Below are positions 2,649 through 10,875 of a stretch of 64,000 nt of DNA, piece by piece. Both the position numbers and the translations under genes were made by a program. The stretch comes from a virus: the IMG/VR virus record IMGVR_UViG_3300046010_009647, positions 1 to 64,000 of that record; one strand, given 5' to 3'. The notes under the pieces are model-generated. The model did not search any database. It was not told the DNA's origin and was given only the letters and a program-made list of their open reading frames with translations. The first letter of the stretch is position 1. Every line of letters starts with the position of its first letter.

Positions 2649-3191
2649 ATGTATACCCCTGGTCCTCAAACGCAACAACCACTCAATTCTGGGGTAACTC
2701 CAGAGCCTCAAGCAAAGCCCAAGGCTCCTGGTAAATCAAAGAACGGTGACGTCGGGGCCTTCATCCAGCAATGCATCTCCCTTTCCTCCTACCTCAAGGA
2801 ACTTGAGACACAAGCCCATCTCATTCACCTGAACCACGAGGGGTCTAACTTCCTCGGGGTGCATGGGTTCCTTAAAGACCAATATGAAGCTCATTTGAAA
2901 CAGTTCGATACGTTAAGTGAGTTCATTCGCAGCATGGACTACCTGATGCCTATGTGCGCCAGGGGGCTAGCTGATGCTGGTCCTGGCATTCAACACGTTA
3001 CCAGCTACAAGGGAACAGAGATGCTCGCCACGTACTACAAGAACCTTGAAGAACTTGGTATGAAGACCAAAAAGCTGGAGCCTGTTGCGGCCAAGGTGGG
3101 TGCCATTGATATTCAAAACTACATGGCTGAGTTGTGTGGTCAAGCCTTTAAGGCTGCTTGGTTTATTAAAGCTACGTTGCGGAATGGCTGA
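2649..3191 (+). CDS. Dps/ferritin-like protein
   Basis: A 180-residue helical protein with a disordered Pro/Lys-rich N-terminus (about 1-30). Residues 40-100 match the Dps core. IHLNHEGSNF (His60) corresponds to the HWN.RGANF motif of Dps. VHGFLKDQY supplies His72 and Asp77. FDTLSEFI gives Asp87 and Glu91 in the spacing of the ferroxidase D-x3-E. The Asp normally four residues after the second His is Lys here, with Asp one position later, so the iron site may be altered. Dps proteins oxidise iron and protect DNA from peroxide. A phage copy could shield DNA or bind iron during infection. Its stop overlaps the next ATG (TGATG). Confidence 0.6.
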   Translation: MYTPGPQTQQPLNSGVTPEPQAKPKAPGKSKNGDVGAFIQQCISLSSYLKELETQAHLIHLNHEGSNFLGVHGFLKDQYEAHLKQFDTLSEFIRSMDYLMPMCARGLADAGPGIQHVTSYKGTEMLATYYKNLEELGMKTKKLEPVAAKVGAIDIQNYMAELCGQAFKAAWFIKATLRNG

Positions 3192-4111
3192 TGCCTGGCG
3201 TATTTCAACACTTACTTAATCAAGTAAGCCGAGGATACGGTCAACTTGATAAAAAAGTATTTAAAGGCGTGTTGCCAGGGGGAGCATCTATTTCTTCTAG
3301 TCTTGCTCCTGATATTCGGAATATCTCACAGTCCCCAATTTATAAAACCGTACGAGATAAAGTTGCTGTTCCCCTTTTAGATAAAGGAATGGAAGCAGGT
3401 ATTGTTCCTGCTAAAGAAGGGATGTTTGCAAGGTTTCTTTCAGGCACTTCGCAACCTTTAACACGCATTCCTGCTGATACCAAAGCTGCAGAAGCTTTAC
3501 TTAACAAAGAACTAACACAACAAGTAACTGTAAATCCTTTGCGATTAACAGCTGAAAAAACTTTTGGTGATTGGATGAATGCCTCTAGAGCAGTAAACAG
3601 TCAAAACGAAATGTATAACATGTATGGCAAAGGTTCACCTGCAACTCAAGAACAACTAAATCAAGTAAGCACCCTGGACCAAAAAGTAAACGAATACGTA
3701 GCGCAACTAGGATTAAAAAATCGAAATGATTTAGTTGTCCCAACAACAGAGCAAAGCATTAAACAAAGACAGCAAGGATATACGCCATCTAATTACGTTG
3801 TTAGTGATTATGCGAACATTGGTGCACAAGGCTTGGGTTTAAATCAAGAACAAACGGCTCTTGTCAATAAAGGATTGGTTAATACTTTAGGGCGTTATAA
3901 GGTGCAAGACGGTCAAACTGCAGATGAAAGATATGATTTTAATTCCTACAACGTAGGTACACCTTTGTTTGCGCCAGGCTCTATGGTTGGTGGTGTGGTA
4001 GGTGAACAAGACAGCAGCCGAGTACTTGCGGATAGAGCTTTGTCCTTAGCCGATAAGTTTGGTTTTATCCAACCAGGGGCTGGTTATCCTGTTCAATTTA
4101 AATTCCGTTAA
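3191..4111 (+). CDS. Hypothetical protein, possibly virion-associated
   Basis: A 306-residue Ala/Gln-rich protein starting MPGVFQHLLNQVSRGYGQLD. The start is coupled to the Dps-like gene by one-base overlap. There are no transmembrane segments or catalytic motifs. The A+T-rich codon use differs from the preceding gene. The C-terminus is compact (FGFIQPGAGYPVQFKFR). Its position beside structural genes suggests a virion or internal protein, but this is inference. The gene ends convergently with the HNH gene, overlapping it by 4 nt. Confidence 0.5.
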   Translation: MPGVFQHLLNQVSRGYGQLDKKVFKGVLPGGASISSSLAPDIRNISQSPIYKTVRDKVAVPLLDKGMEAGIVPAKEGMFARFLSGTSQPLTRIPADTKAAEALLNKELTQQVTVNPLRLTAEKTFGDWMNASRAVNSQNEMYNMYGKGSPATQEQLNQVSTLDQKVNEYVAQLGLKNRNDLVVPTTEQSIKQRQQGYTPSNYVVSDYANIGAQGLGLNQEQTALVNKGLVNTLGRYKVQDGQTADERYDFNSYNVGTPLFAPGSMVGGVVGEQDSSRVLADRALSLADKFGFIQPGAGYPVQFKFR

Positions 4112-4362
4112 CTAGCCCAGTGCTCAAGCCTATGACAGTTGCAGCATAGCGGAATACACTTACTGATCTCTTGCTCAACCCTGCTCCAGGCGTAACCATG
4201 GTTCACCATGGATGAGATGTTATTGTCCTTGTCACCTATGTGGTGGAACTCAAGGACACGATGATCATCCAACCCACACTTCTTGCACTGCAAAGTCTTC
4301 TTGTACTCCAGAAGCTTTTGTCGATTCTTATCGATACGTTTTTTAGCAGTGCTCCAGGTCAC
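4108..4362 (-). CDS. Small HNH endonuclease
   Basis: An 84-residue protein with the zinc-stabilised HNH layout: CKKCG, then LEFHHIGDKD as the catalytic His region, then PLCCNCHRLEH. The N-terminus is a Lys/Arg-rich helix. Starts at GTG. Free-standing HNH genes of this size act as homing-type nickases, and this one sits at the edge of the tRNA region, a common insertion site. Specificity unknown. Confidence 0.75.
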   Translation of the reverse strand: MTWSTAKKRIDKNRQKLLEYKKTLQCKKCGLDDHRVLEFHHIGDKDNNISSMVNHGYAWSRVEQEISKCIPLCCNCHRLEHWAS

Positions 4363-4837: not shown

Positions 4838-5467
4838 TTATTCTACATGCTTTACCTCATACATGTAATGGTCTGATGTCTCCAGCTTCCTTTTGTTTTC
4901 TACCGAATACACCGTCATATCAATCTCATACCCTGGGTTCTGTTTGATACGGTTAAAGGTCCAGGCGTTGTCGTACCAAATGATTCGGTTGTTGGGATAT
5001 GCATAGTAATTACCGCTCTCCATTTTGAAAAGATGGGCGCACTTATGCTCAGGTGTCTCTGAGAAATTAAAGTCGGTCGTACCCTTGTTTTCCCATGACC
5101 AATCAAGCGTAAACATGTAGGAGCCAAGAGCCTTCTCACCGCTGGGCTTGATCAATTCAGCTTGCAACCCGGCAAGTCGTGCACGTTTTTGAACGTCAAT
5201 ATAAGGTGAGAAGCAGTCCCAGTACATCACGTCTTCCAACGGCTCAACGGGTGCATCAGGCTTCCAGCAGAACGCATGTAGGGGACGCCGTGTCCAATTT
5301 ACGCCATTCTCAAGGAAGGCTTCAAAGAGAGGTACACGCTTCTCAATACTGGCAACACAGTGCACATCACACTTGGTCACCTCGCCATGACCTTGCTTGT
5401 GGTTGTAAAGAAACTCGTTGCGGATGTAGCACGACCAATCGGGAAGGTTGTGATTCAAATACGCCAC
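4838..5467 (-). CDS. Conserved-type hypothetical protein
   Basis: A soluble protein of about 209 residues rich in Trp, Tyr and His (LDWSWENK, NNRIIWYDNAW). GTG 5467 is the likely start. A TTG at 5473 lies inside the T-run of the upstream terminator and is less credible. There are no membrane segments or known catalytic motif. It is separated from the upstream basic-protein genes by a terminator, so it probably has its own expression. Function unknown. Confidence 0.55.
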   Translation of the reverse strand: MAYLNHNLPDWSCYIRNEFLYNHKQGHGEVTKCDVHCVASIEKRVPLFEAFLENGVNWTRRPLHAFCWKPDAPVEPLEDVMYWDCFSPYIDVQKRARLAGLQAELIKPSGEKALGSYMFTLDWSWENKGTTDFNFSETPEHKCAHLFKMESGNYYAYPNNRIIWYDNAWTFNRIKQNPGYEIDMTVYSVENKRKLETSDHYMYEVKHVE

Positions 5468-5471
5468 GTAC

Positions 5472-5498
5472 AAAAAATCCCGGTTGTTATACCGGGAT
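5472..5498 (-). terminator. Rho-independent terminator (minus strand)
   Basis: An 8-bp stem (5491-5498 with 5477-5484) closes a 6-nt loop. On the minus strand it is followed by six T residues (5477-5472). The next gene starts within about 10 nt. Confidence 0.75.
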
Positions 5499-5550
5499 CA
5501 TACTTCCTTCCCACTCAGACTGTTGCTAAGCACTACATTCGTAACGTGAA

Positions 5551-5589
5551 GGAGCTTTCGACTATTAGCTCCGGAGCGGTATTGCTCCG
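5551..5589. other. Two adjacent hairpins in intergenic region
   Basis: GGAGCT/AGCTCC (551-556 with 567-572 of the 5-kb block) is followed at once by GGAGC/GCTCC (5573-5577 with 5584-5588). They lie between the small basic gene and the terminator at 5472-5498, so transcripts leaving that gene end in three successive hairpins. Confidence 0.5.
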
Positions 5590-5604
5590 TATGTCAGGAT
5601 ATCA

Positions 5605-5769
5605 CTATTTTTTCTTCTTTGCGGCTGCAGCTTTCTTTGCTTCGATCATTGCTTTGAACTTGTCGCGGGCAGCAGCTTGCTTGTCGGTGCCACCTGCTTT
5701 GCCTTTAGCCGGAGCTTCTTTGCCCTTGGGAGGAACAGCTTTGCCTTTAGGGGGAACTGCTTTAGCCAT
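5605..5769 (-). CDS. Small Lys/Ala/Pro-rich basic protein
   Basis: A 54-residue protein starting MAKAVPPKGKAVPPKGK, with two to three VPPKGK/APAKGK repeats, then a short amphipathic helix (DKFKAMIEAKKAAAAKKKK). Composition resembles the basic tails of histone H1- or HU-like proteins. It sits downstream of the DUF5872-related genes, which are also strongly basic. A DNA- or RNA-binding role is inferred from charge only. Confidence 0.65.
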   Translation of the reverse strand: MAKAVPPKGKAVPPKGKEAPAKGKAGGTDKQAAARDKFKAMIEAKKAAAAKKKK

Positions 5770-5799
5770 AATCGTTAAGTATCTTTATTGATTATAAAG

Positions 5800-6000
5800 T
5801 TACTTACCTTGTTTATAACGACGGGCGGCACGTCCGGCTTTTTTGGCACGTTCAGTGTTAGCTACAAATTGTTTACCTTCTCTACTACCAGCTCTTTTCT
5901 TTTGGTCAGTCTCCTCACGTTCTTCTTTAGACAGTGAAGCCCACGCTTTTTCTGGTAGGTAACGCTTAGTGTAACCCTTTTGAATTGCTTTGTCTGCCAT
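5800..6000 (-). CDS. Small basic protein, second half of a split DUF5872-type protein
   Basis: A 66-residue Lys/Arg-rich protein with YLPEKAWASLSKEEREETD and KKRAGSREGKQFVANTE. In related proteins of phages and large algal DNA viruses this block follows a DUF5872 domain in one polypeptide. Here it is a separate ORF whose ATG overlaps the stop of the upstream DUF5872-like frame (TAATG), consistent with a recently split gene. Function of the family is unknown. The family assignment is from memory of the pattern. Confidence 0.6.
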   Translation of the reverse strand: MADKAIQKGYTKRYLPEKAWASLSKEEREETDQKKRAGSREGKQFVANTERAKKAGRAARRYKQGK

Positions 6001-6311
6001 TATTTGCTTTCCTTGTACTTCTTAGCAGCAGACTTAGCCTTGCTACGTTTCTCATACTCATCTTTGGTTTGCCACTTTTCTTTGCCCCACTTCTCTAAAG
6101 ACTTTTGTTTATCACCTTTACCCCCTTTATATCCACCACCAGCTTCTTTGTACTCACTAGCAACAAGCTGAGCTTTTCTAGCCGAAATAATTAGTTAGCC
6201 TTACGGCTACGACCATTCTCCCGGTTTGCCACCACGGCCTTCACGCATAACTTTGTTTTTAATGCGCTCACGCAGGTCTGGTTTGGTGTACTTGCTTTTG
6301 TCTTCAGCCAT
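6000..6311 (-). CDS. DUF5872-like gene interrupted by a 27-nt in-frame element (possible bypass)
   Basis: ATG 6311 opens a 34-codon frame ending GGKPGEWS, followed by TAG at 6209-6207. After 27 nt containing TAG, TAA and TAA in frame, the same frame resumes with ARKAQLVASEYKEAGGGYKG and runs 60 codons to TAA 6002-6000. Joined, the product is a 94-residue DUF5872-type protein, contiguous at the family's KPGxWSARK motif. The downstream part has no ATG, GTG or TTG in frame, so it cannot start on its own by normal rules. The SD-like GAGG precedes ATG 6311, which overlaps the end of the upstream endonuclease gene. The alternatives are translational bypassing or a recent pseudogene. Confidence 0.6.
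6183..6212 (-). other. Candidate translational bypass element
   Basis: On the minus strand a TCG codon (6212-6210) is followed at once by a TAG stop. The stop begins a 5-bp hairpin, TAGCC-GTAA-GGCTA, with a GNRA-type loop. Ten bases later comes a second TCG (6185-6183) in the same frame. Identical take-off and landing codons, a stop next to the take-off codon and a hairpin at the gap entrance are the features of the T4 gene 60 bypass. Confidence 0.5.
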
Positions 6312-6912
6312 AACTTCCTCGCTCTTTAAGATAAGTGACTGCGTTTGTCAATACTTCTATATTATCACCAAATAAACCTAAAGCTCTGTTGCATTCTTTG
6401 CACAACAAACCCCTAAACTCATTAGTTTTATGGTTATGGTCCATTGCTAAAGATTGTTTGTCTTTAGGAGGATCTTGGCAAATTGCGCATAAACCTTCCT
6501 GTGCCTCAAACACAACATCATATTGTGCTTTTGTTATTCCTCTGCGTTCGTATTTTTTGTGGTTGTGATGCAATAAATCTTGCCCTTGTTTTTTAACTTT
6601 TTGATAATGTTCTTTGTTATTATCTACCCATTTATTCCAGGTTATTCTGTTACAGGTTTTGCATGAAGAATGAAGATATAATTTCCCATCTTGTTTGCGT
6701 CTTCTAAAGCAATCCCAATCTAAATAATGAGCACATTTAGAACATTGTTTTTGGCCGTCTGCTCCATACAAAAGCCTAAATCGACGATTGACTAAAGATC
6801 TGCAATCCTTGCATACGCTGTCTCTTTTTATATTGCCGGCTGAGTTGTACCCTTTGTTTGCAAAATTTTCATACGGCTTTCTAGTTCCGCATTCCCGGCA
6901 AAGCTTTTGCAT
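6304..6912 (-). CDS. Endonuclease VII-type HNH endonuclease with zinc knuckles
   Basis: 202 residues from ATG 6912; a GTG at 6951 is an alternative start. Three CxxC-type zinc knuckles occupy the first 105 residues: CREC, CKDC, and CSKC with CKTC. They are followed by the endonuclease VII core: YDVVFEAQEGLCAICQDPP, MDHNHKTNEFRGLLC and NRALGLFGDNIEVL. A hairpin TTGTGCT/AGCACAA lies between the alternative starts and may limit translation, as in homing genes. The gene sits between a truncated and an interrupted copy of the same DUF5872 N-terminus, strongly suggesting that it is a homing endonuclease of that site. Confidence 0.8.
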   Translation of the reverse strand: MQKLCRECGTRKPYENFANKGYNSAGNIKRDSVCKDCRSLVNRRFRLLYGADGQKQCSKCAHYLDWDCFRRRKQDGKLYLHSSCKTCNRITWNKWVDNNKEHYQKVKKQGQDLLHHNHKKYERRGITKAQYDVVFEAQEGLCAICQDPPKDKQSLAMDHNHKTNEFRGLLCKECNRALGLFGDNIEVLTNAVTYLKERGSYG

Positions 6913-6947
6913 TGGTTGGTTTGTGCTTTTCTTACTATAGCACAAAA

Positions 6948-7046
6948 TCACTGACCAGGCTTGCCACCTTTGGAGCCAGCCATCACGCGATCTTTGATTC
7001 GTTCACGTAACTCAGGTTTTGAGTACTTGCTATCATCCTGCGCCAT
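6948..7046 (-). pseudogene. Truncated DUF5872 N-terminal copy
   Basis: A 32-codon frame, MAQDDSKYSKPELRERIKD then a GGKPGQ end, is closely similar to the N-terminus of the gene starting at 6311. It stops (TGA) exactly at the KPGQ-W position, where the endonuclease gene begins. It appears to be the left half of a DUF5872 gene broken by the endonuclease insertion. It may still be translated as a short peptide. Confidence 0.65.
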
Positions 7047-7200
7047 CAGGATCTTTATTACGTTCTTTTAATATTTTAGCCCACTTACATGGACGTGATA
7101 ATACTTGCTCTAGCTCCTTAGCAGTTGGGTAAGGAATAGGAAGACTGAGCAAATATTTTTCGAGGCGTTCAGCCTCGGTAACGATTCGTCTTTTCGTCAT
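7033..7200 (-). CDS. Small hypothetical protein
   Basis: A 55-residue basic protein beginning MTKRRIVTEAERLEKYLL. AAGAAGG lies immediately before the ATG. It overlaps the upstream gene by 32 nt and the truncated DUF5872 copy by 14 nt, a compact polycistronic arrangement. The segment PTAKELEQVLSRPCKWAKIL is helical. Function unknown. Confidence 0.5.
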   Translation of the reverse strand: MTKRRIVTEAERLEKYLLSLPIPYPTAKELEQVLSRPCKWAKILKERNKDPDGAG

Positions 7201-7381
7201 CCTTCTTGGCAAATTGATGCATCAAATCATCAACCTGCTCCAGGGATTCAAGACGGCACAAGATGTCAGAGATGGTTGTAATCGTAATGGGATGCTCTGT
7301 ACGTGCAGCAAATGCCAGGGCATCACGCATACAACTAGCTGCATTCTCAACGGACTCTTTAACTTGAGTAGAAAGAGACAT
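7169..7381 (-). CDS. Small hypothetical protein
   Basis: 70 residues from ATG 7381, beginning MSLSTQVKESVENAASCMRD. It is helical, with the segment TEHPITITTISDILCRLESL. It resembles a small conserved cyanophage protein of unknown role. It follows the aminotransferase-like gene on the same strand. No membrane or catalytic features. Confidence 0.6.
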   Translation of the reverse strand: MSLSTQVKESVENAASCMRDALAFAARTEHPITITTISDILCRLESLEQVDDLMHQFAKKDDEKTNRYRG

Positions 7382-7450
7382 CTCTGATTCTTTTGGTGTT
7401 CTTAGTATAGGACCAATCAACAACATGTGTAGAGCATGTACGTGTAACAA

Positions 7451-8707
7451 CTATAGGCTAAAGCCACAGTTGTAACCATCACATGAGATTGGTGTATTCA
7501 CCATAAAAGAATGGATGGTTTCCCCTACATAAGAGATGTCGTCATAGGTAAGGGCTGGGGATGTACCAAGGAAGAAGACACGTTTAAGGACTTCGTACGC
7601 ATTGGGGAAGTCTTTAGCACTGCCCAAGTGCCGATATGCAGGATGGAGCAGCAAGTTACCAGCAAAATAATTTCGAGTTTGTATGCCATTACCTTCGAGA
7701 TGTTGTTGTAAAGCCTGCTTGACATTGGAGTTGTCGCAGACAATAGGCACACCAAACCATGACGTTTCTGCTTGTAATTTTTCGCCTACAATTTGTACCT
7801 CATCGGGATAATCCTGGAAGTAGTTAACAATCGTTTGATAATTCAATCGGCGGATCGTATGTACTTCATCAAACTTTTCCAGTTGAACCAAGCCGACTGC
7901 ACCTTGTAGATCCAATGGCTTGAGGTTGTAGCCAATCTGACTAAAGACATACTTGTGATCAACGACCACATCATAGTCAGGTAGCCACGTATCAAAGCGT
8001 TTGCCACACATGCCCTTAGCCAGCATGTTGCATTCACCAACGCAATAACAGTCGCGCCCCCACCAGGCGAACTGGCGTGCAAGTGAGGTCAAACCGGGAA
8101 GGTTTGAGGACACCATCCCACCTTCAAGAGTAGTAATATGATGCGCCGGATAAAAAGAACACGACGCGGCAACGGCTTCCTTTGTTAAGTAATTGTCATT
8201 CCACTTGGAGCCAAGGGAGTCGCAGTTGTCCGCAATATACTTCAGCGAATGCCGCTCACAGATGTCGAGTAGGCGATCCAAGTCATAACTATTACCCAAA
8301 ACAGGGCTACTAAAAACTGCAACTGTTTTGTCCGTGATTGCATCTTCTACCTGCGATAGATCCCAATTTAAGTCATCCCAGGTGATGTCCACAAACCTAG
8401 GGGTCAATCCATTCTGAATAATGGGATTGATCGTGGTCGGGAAACCGACGACGCTAACAATAATCTCAGCACCATCGGGCCACTCGAAGTATTTCTTCAA
8501 GGCGGCAAGCATCACCAAATTGGCAGAGCTACCACTATTCACCATAAGGGATGAATCAAATCCAAACTTACGAGAAAACGCGCGTTCAAATTTGTCAACC
8601 TCTTTACCGGCTGGATACCAGGCTCCTTCTTTAAGGGTCGTAATCGCTGCTTCTATTTCACGACCGTCAAAGTACGGACCGGAGTACAAAACTTTTGATC
8701 GCGACAT
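7451..8707 (-). CDS. rfbH: RfbH/E1-type CDP-4-keto-6-deoxyhexose 3-dehydrase
   Basis: A 418-residue DegT/DnrJ/EryC1 fold protein, close to the length of RfbH. The usual PLP lysine is replaced by His190 in FYPAHHITTLEGG, the signature of the 3-dehydrase group. Iron-sulfur cysteines are present: Cys162 (DNCDSLGS), then exactly 57 residues to Cys220, Cys222 one residue on, and Cys234 before GKRF. The last spacing is 11 rather than 7 residues because of a short insertion that carries Cys226. E1 enzymes remove the C3 hydroxyl of CDP-4-keto-6-deoxyglucose, with a reductase partner, on the way to 3,6-dideoxyhexoses. No reductase is visible here. The gene overlaps the epimerase gene upstream by 55 nt. 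Confidence 0.8.
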   Translation of the reverse strand: MSRSKVLYSGPYFDGREIEAAITTLKEGAWYPAGKEVDKFERAFSRKFGFDSSLMVNSGSSANLVMLAALKKYFEWPDGAEIIVSVVGFPTTINPIIQNGLTPRFVDITWDDLNWDLSQVEDAITDKTVAVFSSPVLGNSYDLDRLLDICERHSLKYIADNCDSLGSKWNDNYLTKEAVAASCSFYPAHHITTLEGGMVSSNLPGLTSLARQFAWWGRDCYCVGECNMLAKGMCGKRFDTWLPDYDVVVDHKYVFSQIGYNLKPLDLQGAVGLVQLEKFDEVHTIRRLNYQTIVNYFQDYPDEVQIVGEKLQAETSWFGVPIVCDNSNVKQALQQHLEGNGIQTRNYFAGNLLLHPAYRHLGSAKDFPNAYEVLKRVFFLGTSPALTYDDISYVGETIHSFMVNTPISCDGYNCGFSL

Positions 8708-9510
8708 AAGTCCTCAAGACCTTCTTGTAATGTCAGCGTTGGTCTGTAACCAAGGTTGTAAAGCTTGGTGCAATCAAGGCTGAATCTAATGGCTTGATTA
8801 TAGTCTTCTCGTGGAGCAATGCGTTTAATCTTGCTGCGTGATTTCAAAATATCTTTGGCATCTGCGATGCAATCAAACAAAAAAGTTTCGATGCCTGTGC
8901 CAACGTTGTAGATCTGGTTGTGTTCACCATAAGTAACGAGGAAATTCAAGGCTCTGCATACGTCAAAGATATGGATGTAGTCGCGGGAAAGGTTTGCGTA
9001 CACATCAACATCTTCATCTTTTTTTAAGGATTCAATAATACGGTGAAGGGCATTGCGCTTTTCTGTGCCCTTATCTGGGCCACCGTAGACATTACCCAGG
9101 CGGAAGATGCGCCACTTCATCCCATGGGCTTGGCAATACTCCATGACCAACTTCTCGGCGGCATACTTGGTCACCGAATAAAAGCCATTGGGATTGCAAA
9201 TGGATTGTTCGGTGGGCTTCACATGAGTGGGGCCGTAAACAAACCAGCTGCTAACGAAGTTAAACGTATCGATGCCAAAGTCACGGCAGTAGTCCAGGCG
9301 ATTGGCAAGCACTGAAAGATTAGTGTGAATATCAAGTTGAGGACTGGTATAGATATTAGTGTTGTCGGTAGTACTAATGAGGTACAGCACGTCCTCTGTC
9401 AATGGACAGCAGTGGTCTCGCTCGACATACTGAGATGGATACATGCCCCTGTAGTATGTCCCAATGATGCCGGTGCCTCCATACAGAGTCAGCTTCACAT
9501 CATTTGACAT
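8653..9510 (-). CDS. NAD-dependent epimerase/dehydratase (extended SDR)
   Basis: 285 residues from ATG 9510. The Rossmann motif GGTGIIG is at the N-terminus, a Ser/Tyr/Lys active site follows (SSWFVYG, then YSVTKYAAEK), and RLGNVYGGPDKG is typical of nucleotide-sugar epimerases. It overlaps the genes on both sides (11 nt with the upstream GT, 55 nt with the RfbH-type gene), so one operon is certain. Likely works on the same nucleotide sugar as the dehydrase. Exact substrate cannot be read from sequence. Confidence 0.8.
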   Translation of the reverse strand: MSNDVKLTLYGGTGIIGTYYRGMYPSQYVERDHCCPLTEDVLYLISTTDNTNIYTSPQLDIHTNLSVLANRLDYCRDFGIDTFNFVSSWFVYGPTHVKPTEQSICNPNGFYSVTKYAAEKLVMEYCQAHGMKWRIFRLGNVYGGPDKGTEKRNALHRIIESLKKDEDVDVYANLSRDYIHIFDVCRALNFLVTYGEHNQIYNVGTGIETFLFDCIADAKDILKSRSKIKRIAPREDYNQAIRFSLDCTKLYNLGYRPTLTLQEGLEDLCRDQKFCTPVRTLTVVK

Positions 9511-10210
9511 ACAAATCTTGGGTGTACCAAAGATCATTGTAGTTGTTTACACCGGTAGCGCCAAGAGTTTCTAGGTCTCCGCCATGGGATGGTTTCTTCA
9601 TGGCAAAGATCATTCCATCAGGTAGCACCAGGGCTTTGTTTTTGTGTGGGTGGTTGGGTGTCAACTCGACTGAATCACCAAAGATCACCTTGTTATCAAT
9701 GTTGCTAACAGCAATTGCCTTGCCCCATGCAGTGGGACCTGTCGGACACAATGGTGTTAAGCCGTAATAATCATCCTCAATGTTGCGAACAATCTGAAAG
9801 ATTGCTTCGTCCAAAATTTCGTTGTCTGCTGGAGCGTAGAAAGCAGCACCATCGCATGCCCACGACACATTGGTGTAACGATTGATGTCGCGGAATGCAA
9901 GCAGCTTGCAATCAAAAGGAACCTTGATTCCTGTCAAGCAACGCAAGCTAATGTCAAAGTACCAACCACCAAGGATGTTGACGATACAGTAACGTGCCAA
10001 GTCGCACTTGTAGGAGTAAGGTTTGACTTTACGGTAAGCACAAAGCACAGCCTCACCGTAGTGTTCCTCCAGGAATTCTTCTACTTCTTTGTTGTTGTAG
10101 ATCTTGTGTTCCCACGTAGGAAAACAATTGACAACACTCTGTGTTGTGTCGGCAAGGAACGGAGGCAGATCTGAATCATTATCCGTTAAGAAGATTTGAG
10201 TGATCTGCAT
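9500..10210 (-). CDS. GT32-type glycosyltransferase (Och1/capsule-like)
   Basis: A 236-residue protein with the GT32 nucleotide-sugar binding region YKCDLARYCIVNILGGWYFD. The usual DxD is represented by FDIS, so one metal-binding acid may be missing or supplied elsewhere. There is no signal or membrane segment, hence a cytoplasmic enzyme acting on a lipid- or protein-linked sugar. It is the second gene of the sugar operon. Confidence 0.7.
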   Translation of the reverse strand: MQITQIFLTDNDSDLPPFLADTTQSVVNCFPTWEHKIYNNKEVEEFLEEHYGEAVLCAYRKVKPYSYKCDLARYCIVNILGGWYFDISLRCLTGIKVPFDCKLLAFRDINRYTNVSWACDGAAFYAPADNEILDEAIFQIVRNIEDDYYGLTPLCPTGPTAWGKAIAVSNIDNKVIFGDSVELTPNHPHKNKALVLPDGMIFAMKKPSHGGDLETLGATGVNNYNDLWYTQDLYVK

Positions 10211-10212
10211 CG

Positions 10213-10875
10213 TTAGCGATAAACAACAAAGGGAAGCTCTTGGATCTTTTGCTTACCGAAGAAGTGTTCCTTATTGAGAAAGACTGCAGTAAGCAGGCGC
10301 TCCATCAGGAAAGCTGGGCCGCGTTTATTGTACCCTCCACGGTCCAGGAAGTAATCCTTTTCTTCCTCCCAAATTGGTAGCAAGATCTCAAAGACAAGAT
10401 CAAAGTACTTCTGCATGGCAGCGTTAGGACCCATCACTTGAAGAGTTTCAAAAAACTTGGGCTGGCTCCACATCTCAAGTAGCATCTCCTCTGTTAAAGG
10501 AATGCGCTTGTTACGGGCTAGCTCCAGGGACATCTCAACCGTTTCATCAAGACCGCCTCCATGTCCTTGGGAAAACTGCTGCTGAACAGAGAACGGAAAG
10601 GTGACGTGACGTGGAATGTATAAGGTGTCATCCTCCAGTCGAGATAGGTAGTACTCTTCCCAATTGCGACGATAGTTAACGATGCCAAAAAAAGGATGGT
10701 TGCAGTCGTTCCAGAGGGTATACATGCAGCTCATTTCACCCCAATAGGGATTAACGTCGGCATGCTCGCCTTCATCCCCGTAAAACGGTATGACTTTTGC
10801 GTTGGTATCAAAACGTACGTGCAGATCCTTTAAGCAGACTGCATAGAGGACCACATCTTTGGCAGCCAGCTTCAC
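10213..10875 (-). CDS. DUF4422-type glycosyltransferase-like protein
   Basis: A 220-residue protein. The run NPYWGEMSCMYTLW...GIVNYRRNW matches the DUF4422 signature (an E-x-YW/WKN region followed by G-x-x-HYRRYF), a family usually found in capsule and O-antigen clusters. Starts at GTG, 3 nt before the GT32 gene. Probably transfers a sugar together with its neighbours. Confidence 0.65.
   Translation of the reverse strand: MKLAAKDVVLYAVCLKDLHVRFDTNAKVIPFYGDEGEHADVNPYWGEMSCMYTLWNDCNHPFFGIVNYRRNWEEYYLSRLEDDTLYIPRHVTFPFSVQQQFSQGHGGGLDETVEMSLELARNKRIPLTEEMLLEMWSQPKFFETLQVMGPNAAMQKYFDLVFEILLPIWEEEKDYFLDRGGYNKRGPAFLMERLLTAVFLNKEHFFGKQKIQELPFVVYR

Follow-up and report, generated by a model that had tools for sequence, protein, structure and literature searches.

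Can a phage gene that is cut in two by a stop codon and a 27-nt gap still yield a single protein? The question is raised by a locus on the minus strand of the window, i.e., the whole stretch of DNA analyzed here (64,000 nt), which corresponds to positions 1-64,000 of a 79.5-kb virus record. For the region concerned, the nearest named relative is Synechococcus phage S-EIV1. From 5' to 3', the locus consists of the native 5' half of a small phage gene, an endonuclease gene, a second 5' half, a TAG stop, a hairpin, a linker, a TCG codon, and the 3' half of the gene (Table 1). An earlier note had described a truncated copy of the gene (7046-6948), an endonuclease VII-type gene, and a second copy broken by 27 nt at the motif KPGxW-SARK, and had proposed that ribosomes hop over the break as they do in phage T4 gene 60. 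This layout is confirmed at those coordinates: from 6311, the second copy encodes ...KPGEWS up to a TAG (6209-6207). The 27 nt of the break, TAGCCGTAAGGCTAACTAATTATTTCG, include TAG, TAA, and TAA in frame, and every sequence detail reported for the break is right (TCG-TAG, a 5-bp hairpin with a GTAA loop, three in-frame stops, a second TCG). Likewise, the downstream SARKAQ... part (6185-6003) keeps the family pattern and has no start codon. If the two parts were joined, the product would have 34 + 60 = 94 residues.

Table 1. Features of the interrupted gene and its cassette, in window coordinates.
Feature	Position	Strand	Basis
Remnant of the native host gene 5' half, 32 aa, ...GGKPGQ then TGA	about 6948..7046	-	ORF and phrog_17747 match
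Whole mobile cassette, about 766 nt	6183..6950	-	Block missing from uninterrupted relatives
Left-end hairpin TTGTGCT..AGCACAA, 7 bp, 5' of the endonuclease gene	6921..6945	-	Recurrence and fold
Endonuclease VII-type (His-Me finger, zinc-ribbon) homing endonuclease	6304..6912, ORF opens 6951	-	PF02945, PHROG
ORF1, replacement N-part, 34 codons, MAEDKSKYTKP...KPGEWS	6210..6311	-	omega, profile match
Shine-Dalgarno-like GGAGAA just 5' of take-off, candidate stimulator	6216..6221	-	GGRGAR conservation
Take-off codon TCG (Ser34)	6210..6212	-	TCG conservation
Stop TAG adjoining take-off, first 3 bases of the hairpin stem	6207..6209	-	Sequence
Take-off hairpin UAGCC-GUAA-GGCUA, GNRA tetraloop, 5-bp stem, 14 nt	6196..6209	-	Fold, conservation
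A/T-rich unstructured linker of variable length	6186..6195	-	Gap lengths in 49 loci
Landing codon TCG	6183..6185	-	First TCN after take-off
ORF2, C-part, 60 codons, ARKAQL...KESK, plus stop	6000..6182	-	omega, 0 in-frame stops, phrog_17747

As for the identity of the host gene, the family name phrog_17747 is better than DUF5872, the type to which it had first been assigned. The gene is indeed DUF5872-like, but its match to the Pfam family (PF19197) is below threshold (18.8 bits versus a cut-off of 27.5), whereas phrog_17747 fits both halves. The N-part matches this 63-position profile up to position 44 and the C-part matches it from position 44, which places the junction exactly on a shared Ser. 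In uninterrupted relatives, the sequence GQW-S-ARKAQ spans the junction, and S-EIV1 carries such an uninterrupted gene (L043, KJ410740, about 3051-3337) with the sequence KGQWSARKSQ. The annotated start of the S-EIV1 CDS (AHV82147.1) is an internal ATG, which leaves out the conserved 5' half. In the window, the gene downstream of the C-part begins at 6000. Directly upstream of the locus (7451-10875, minus strand) lie genes that, from their translations alone, resemble sugar aminotransferase, NAD-dependent sugar epimerase, and glycosyltransferase genes. A second nuclease-like ORF, of the HNH type (phrog_2255, E=3e-20), is found at 4108-4362 on the minus strand, at the convergent end of the 3191-4111 gene.

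The same arrangement occurs in 49 other IMG/VR contigs, making about 50 in all, which come from uncultured, S-EIV1-like freshwater cyanophages. Searching IMG/VR by the endonuclease alone yielded 41 loci (endonuclease identities 100% to 51%), of which 36 have the ...GEWS-TAG...SARKAQ layout after the endonuclease. In the distant endonuclease relatives L038, L039, L041, and L042, the host gene does not come next. A 20-nt signature, TGGTCGTAGCCGNRAGGCTA, is present in 48 IMG/VR contigs, each time within the host gene, a recurrence far beyond chance, and has no match in 84,980 GTDB genomes. A wider take-off pattern, GGRGAATGGTCGTAG, added to the known loci only L173 (identical to L022), L198, and chance matches in unrelated contigs. 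L198 (IMGVR_UViG_3300049043_000164), an endonuclease-less split gene with several small indels, some in the N-part too, has the look of sequencing error and was excluded from all counts. The N-part/gap DNA has no match among 50,697 named phage records, and among named phages the closest relatives of the endonuclease stay below 60% identity, with 38% for the top full-length matches. A tblastn search with the C-part against named phages returned nothing, even for the copy in S-EIV1, probably owing to low-complexity filtering.

Comparison with related phages, a check that had been set beforehand, shows that the locus contains an insertion. About 100 uninterrupted relatives, together with their empty sites, define it: window positions 6949 and 6176/6182 are adjacent in these syntenic genes, with which the native remnant aligns up to 6949. 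The inserted block contains the left hairpin, the endonuclease gene, the replacement N-part, the gap, and the landing codon. The endonuclease ORF matches Pfam PF02945 (E=2e-22) and the PHROG endonuclease VII family (E=1e-33), and its likelier start is the ATG at 6912, since the residues before it are unconserved and stops occur there in several relatives. Compared with the free-standing phage endonucleases of PF02945, the cassette nuclease is an ordinary member. The suggestion of a cassette like that of T4 mobA and gene 60 was correct in that this is a mobile homing-endonuclease cassette, but the enzyme is EndoVII-type rather than MobA/HNH, which places the cassette outside the MobA family. 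Most intact cassettes have the left-end hairpin 5' of the endonuclease gene, whose expression it may control; L061 has a different, longer hairpin. The window's left-end hairpin also contains an extended -10-like sequence, TGTGCTATAGT.

The cassette moves as one unit from genome to genome. Its left junction, CAR/TRATTTTGTG... (slash at the boundary), is identical behind clearly different native remnants in 15 loci, 11 distinct remnants being joined at this one point. In the main class, pairwise distances for the endonuclease correlate with those of the N-part with a rho of 0.81, versus 0.39 for the C-part. In the C-part tree, gap-bearing and gap-free genes are interleaved, which involves 21 changes, 8 of them forced by starred branches. 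Together, the distance correlations and the interleaved tree indicate that the endonuclease, N-part, and gap move jointly and become attached to whichever 3' half is resident. On this comparison of sequences, the cassette brings an N-terminal half that replaces the one of the host gene.

We then consider the gap itself, measured from take-off to landing codon in 49 loci. It is 27 nt long in 22 loci, 24 in 12, 28 in seven, 29 in five, 23 in two, and 33 in one, so that all three phases (0, 1, and 2) are represented. In none of the 49 does a TCN triplet, in any frame, intervene between take-off and the landing codon, itself a TCN. The take-off/landing pair is TCG/TCG in 47 loci and TCG/TCT in the other two, and TAG directly follows take-off in every locus, a feature that the search did not impose in the endonuclease-based set. 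The codon preceding landing is ATT, TGA, ACT, AAT, TAT, CTA, ATA, TTT, TTA, or CAA. Among 40 distinct C-part regions, the frame of the landing codon contains no stops, versus 52 and 173 in the other two frames. A hop from TCG to the next TCN accounts for these frame data. At the junction of 100 uninterrupted relatives, Ser is encoded by TCT (49), TCA (18), AGT (14), TCC (10), TCG (5), or AGC (4). The sequence just 5' of take-off is also distinctive, with GGRGAR in 49/49 interrupted genes; at this site, a purine-ended Gly codon is found in 34/100 uninterrupted genes and the next residue is Gln in 94/100. Occupied sites thus read GEW, versus GQW in those 94 uninterrupted genes. The effect of this change may be to prevent cleavage, to provide a Shine-Dalgarno-like stimulator a few nt before take-off, or both; the gap, combined with the Q-to-E change, would then shield the occupied site from the endonuclease.

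The same geometry bears on the possibility of a split protein, in which translation would terminate at TAG to release a 34-residue N-part and restart near the landing site, producing a separate C-part that assembles with the N-part. Split genes are known beside phage homing endonucleases, as in nrdA of Aeh1 and gene 43 of phage 25 (PMC2988022), and re-initiation could make use of the Shine-Dalgarno-like GGRGAR upstream and, in the class with 28/29/33-nt gaps, of an in-frame ATG seven codons past landing. However, no start codon is kept before landing, none of the first codons (TCG-GCN-MGN) is a start, and an in-frame ATG is lacking in the first gap class. Nor would re-initiation lead one to expect TCG to be invariant on either side of the gap or landing to occur at the first TCN. 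We therefore regard a split protein as unlikely.

The hairpin that begins at the stop codon is strongly conserved. This was measured on the endonuclease-found set only, since loci L044-L091 were retrieved with the 20-nt pattern, which itself dictates the hairpin. Among the 31 distinct N-part/hairpin sequences of that set, the take-off TCG is present in all and the stem is kept in 30. The mean difference is 2.6% in the ten stem bases (all from one locus), 18% in the loop, and 48% at 4-fold sites of the N-part. Hairpin loops are of the GNRA type, and the window's hairpin alone has a predicted stability of -7.1 kcal/mol (z -2.3). L022 (also recorded as L173), whose gap is TAGCTATAATATTAAATAATTTCG, has an intact endonuclease, both halves, and both TCG codons, and is the only such locus without a stable take-off hairpin; it thus offers a natural experiment on the need for the hairpin.

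Other RNA or peptide signals were sought around the gap. There is no signal for a T4-like 5' stem-loop when the 60 nt preceding take-off are compared with synonymous shuffles (mean z -0.42). About 15-31 nt after landing, nearly all loci with 28/29/33-nt gaps carry a coding stem-loop, AUGCUC-GNNA-GAGCAU (L044, L050, L058, L068, L072, L077, L079, L086, L087, and L089), which is missing in the window's class and in the uninterrupted L202, L203, L205, and L209. In L072, its stem shows one compensated pair, C-G to U-A. This element is a possible counterpart of the 3' stem-loop of T4. In the N-part, a Lys/Tyr stretch, KSKYTK, precedes take-off by 24-29 residues. Uninterrupted relatives share the KYTKP motif, however, so that it gives no grounds for assigning a nascent-peptide signal of the KKYK type. 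The window contains no tRNA genes, so a phage Ser tRNA is unavailable as an explanation.

The conserved hairpin would also be compatible with removal of the gap from the RNA, as a mini-intron or by processing, and homing endonucleases often ride in introns. Nevertheless, Rfam returned no intron or ribozyme match at E<=1 over positions 5400-7600, and a group I or II intron was rejected on the same search, which found no catalytic RNA core. A gap of 23-33 nt is also much shorter than known self-splicing introns, and the only structure conserved across the junctions is the 5-bp hairpin. RNA-level removal is consequently very unlikely.

Next, we asked whether the C-part is maintained as coding sequence. 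Codon models (IQ-TREE, kappa fixed at 1) gave an omega of 0.056 for the N-part (39 distinct sequences), with a log-likelihood gain of 213 over omega = 1, and of 0.070 for the C-part (41 sequences), with a gain of 526. Because the cassette moves, the value for all C-parts includes time before insertion, and sister pairs were therefore counted apart. When both sisters carry the gap, the C-part shows 71 synonymous and 28 nonsynonymous changes (pN/pS 0.095), and in the class-B clade (28/29/33-nt gaps), composed mostly of gap carriers, C-part omega is 0.076. Both halves of the gene are thus under purifying selection, across gap insertions and deletions of every phase. Decay of the C-part, for which we looked in relatives, is not seen: none of the 49 C-parts has a frameshift or a stop, even though indels do occur in the gap. 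The split gene also outlives the endonuclease, of which only a 3' fragment is left in nine loci and nothing in two (L058 and L073), while N-part, hairpin, and C-part are intact in all 11. This persistence argues against a stem kept for the endonuclease's sake and against C-parts kept merely by recent arrival, for which decay would be expected.

These results contradict the pseudogene alternative considered in the earlier note, according to which the gene was recently broken and its untranslated C-part has yet to decay. Since the element is mobile, some insertions are young, and C-parts do group with uninterrupted relatives. Nevertheless, the low pN/pS and omega of gap carriers, the intact C-parts, and survival after endonuclease loss all speak against it. 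In contrast, two of 11 distinct copies of the true remnant (7046-6948 in the window) no longer have a start. A recent pseudogene is thus highly improbable. Finally, stop readthrough, frameshifting, or a reassigned stop codon in place of hopping has next to no probability, since the gap carries a stop (TAG, TAA, or TGA) in the C-part frame in 47/49 loci, often directly before landing, and its phase varies, so that no single readthrough event or shift would suffice; only at the two 23-nt loci (L047 and L055), whose gaps have no stop in that frame, could a frameshift or an internal ATG also reach the C-part.

Together, these findings support the homing/bypass interpretation first put forward for this locus. 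Its parts that can be tested on sequence, i.e., empty sites, mobility of the cassette, matched codons, a conserved hairpin, gap indels of three phases with the C-part frame kept, and purifying selection, were all borne out. Programmed bypassing appears by far the best explanation, and the locus is very probably a mobile homing cassette in which ribosomes pass from UCG to the first UCN to produce one full-length protein (94 residues here).

We propose the following mechanism. The EndoVII-type homing endonuclease would target the conserved CARTGG-TCN-GC in a phrog_17747 gene and copy the cassette in. The cassette would cut off the resident 5' half by an immediate stop and bring its own 5' half, ending in ...GEWS-UCG, which would be kept apart from the resident 3' half by a GNRA hairpin starting at UAG and by an A/T-rich linker. 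After 34 codons, the ribosome would stand at UCG with UAG, part of the stem-loop, in the A site, and would detach, helped by the hairpin and perhaps by GGRGAR as stimulators. It would then slide 23-33 nt until the peptidyl-tRNA-Ser pairs anew with the first UCN encountered, which is UCG in all but two loci (UCU there); ARK... would be read next, yielding one full-length protein.

An important implication concerns how bypassing evolves. Efficient bypassing in phages has so far rested on one secure case, T4 gene 60, and since its gap reportedly has no counterpart even in relatives of T4 (PMC3014915), the rules could not be read from evolution. A search of the non-subscription literature found no report of bypassing in cyanophages. 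The cassette described here quite likely represents a second, independent, and widespread lineage of homing-endonuclease-linked bypass, with its own replacement exon and a compact UCG-UAG hairpin hop signal, landing at the first UCN; the gap length would drift through three phases while the protein stays constant, even after endonuclease loss. Its roughly 50 natural variants separate what is fixed (UCG, UAG, 5-bp stem, GNRA loop, and GGRGAR) from what drifts (gap length and linker). They also provide an independent lineage in which to test whether homing endonucleases and bypass signals are linked, as has been proposed. A selfish element could in this way enter a coding gene without an intron or an intein. 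The compact hop signal would be of use for ribosome mechanics and synthetic biology, and gene callers will label such split genes broken.

How does this compare with known systems? The candidate bypass in the terminase gene of Streptomyces phage Hau3 also concerns a phage gene, with a Shine-Dalgarno-like sequence 5' of the gap and a Trp near take-off, but is UUA-related, has a much shorter gap, and no endonuclease cassette is mentioned for it (PMC5009743). The byps of Magnusiomyces capitatus mitochondria are likewise short inserts bypassed at many related sites, with some mismatched landing codons tolerated; however, they are mitochondrial, apparently independent of mRNA context, and found in many genes, versus one gene here, and a linked homing endonuclease is not described (PMC5009743). 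In T4 gene 60, roles in bypassing have been found for an A-site stem-loop, UAG, and matched codons (PMC11194080, PMC5009743). The cyanophage cassette shares with gene 60 and mobA the UAG right after take-off and the small tetraloop hairpin beginning at the stop (PMC5009743, PMC3014915, PMC11194080), a noncoding gap with further stops, a split host gene next to a homing endonuclease, and a short ORF1 (34 codons here versus 46 in T4). Of two further features of T4, a 5' stem-loop is missing here and a nascent-peptide signal cannot be assigned, the KYTKP stretch being shared with uninterrupted genes. T4 differs further in using Gly GGA and a 50-nt gap, versus Ser UCG, 23-33 nt, and a GNRA loop here; in its HNH endonuclease MobA and topoisomerase gene, versus an EndoVII-type enzyme and a small phrog_17747 gene; and in having one gap, versus about 50 uncultured cyanophage contigs with gap indels. 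In addition, only the cyanophage cassette carries a replacement N-terminal half. On this comparison, the cassette would work like T4 gene 60 bypassing, with an endonuclease of a different lineage and an exon of its own.
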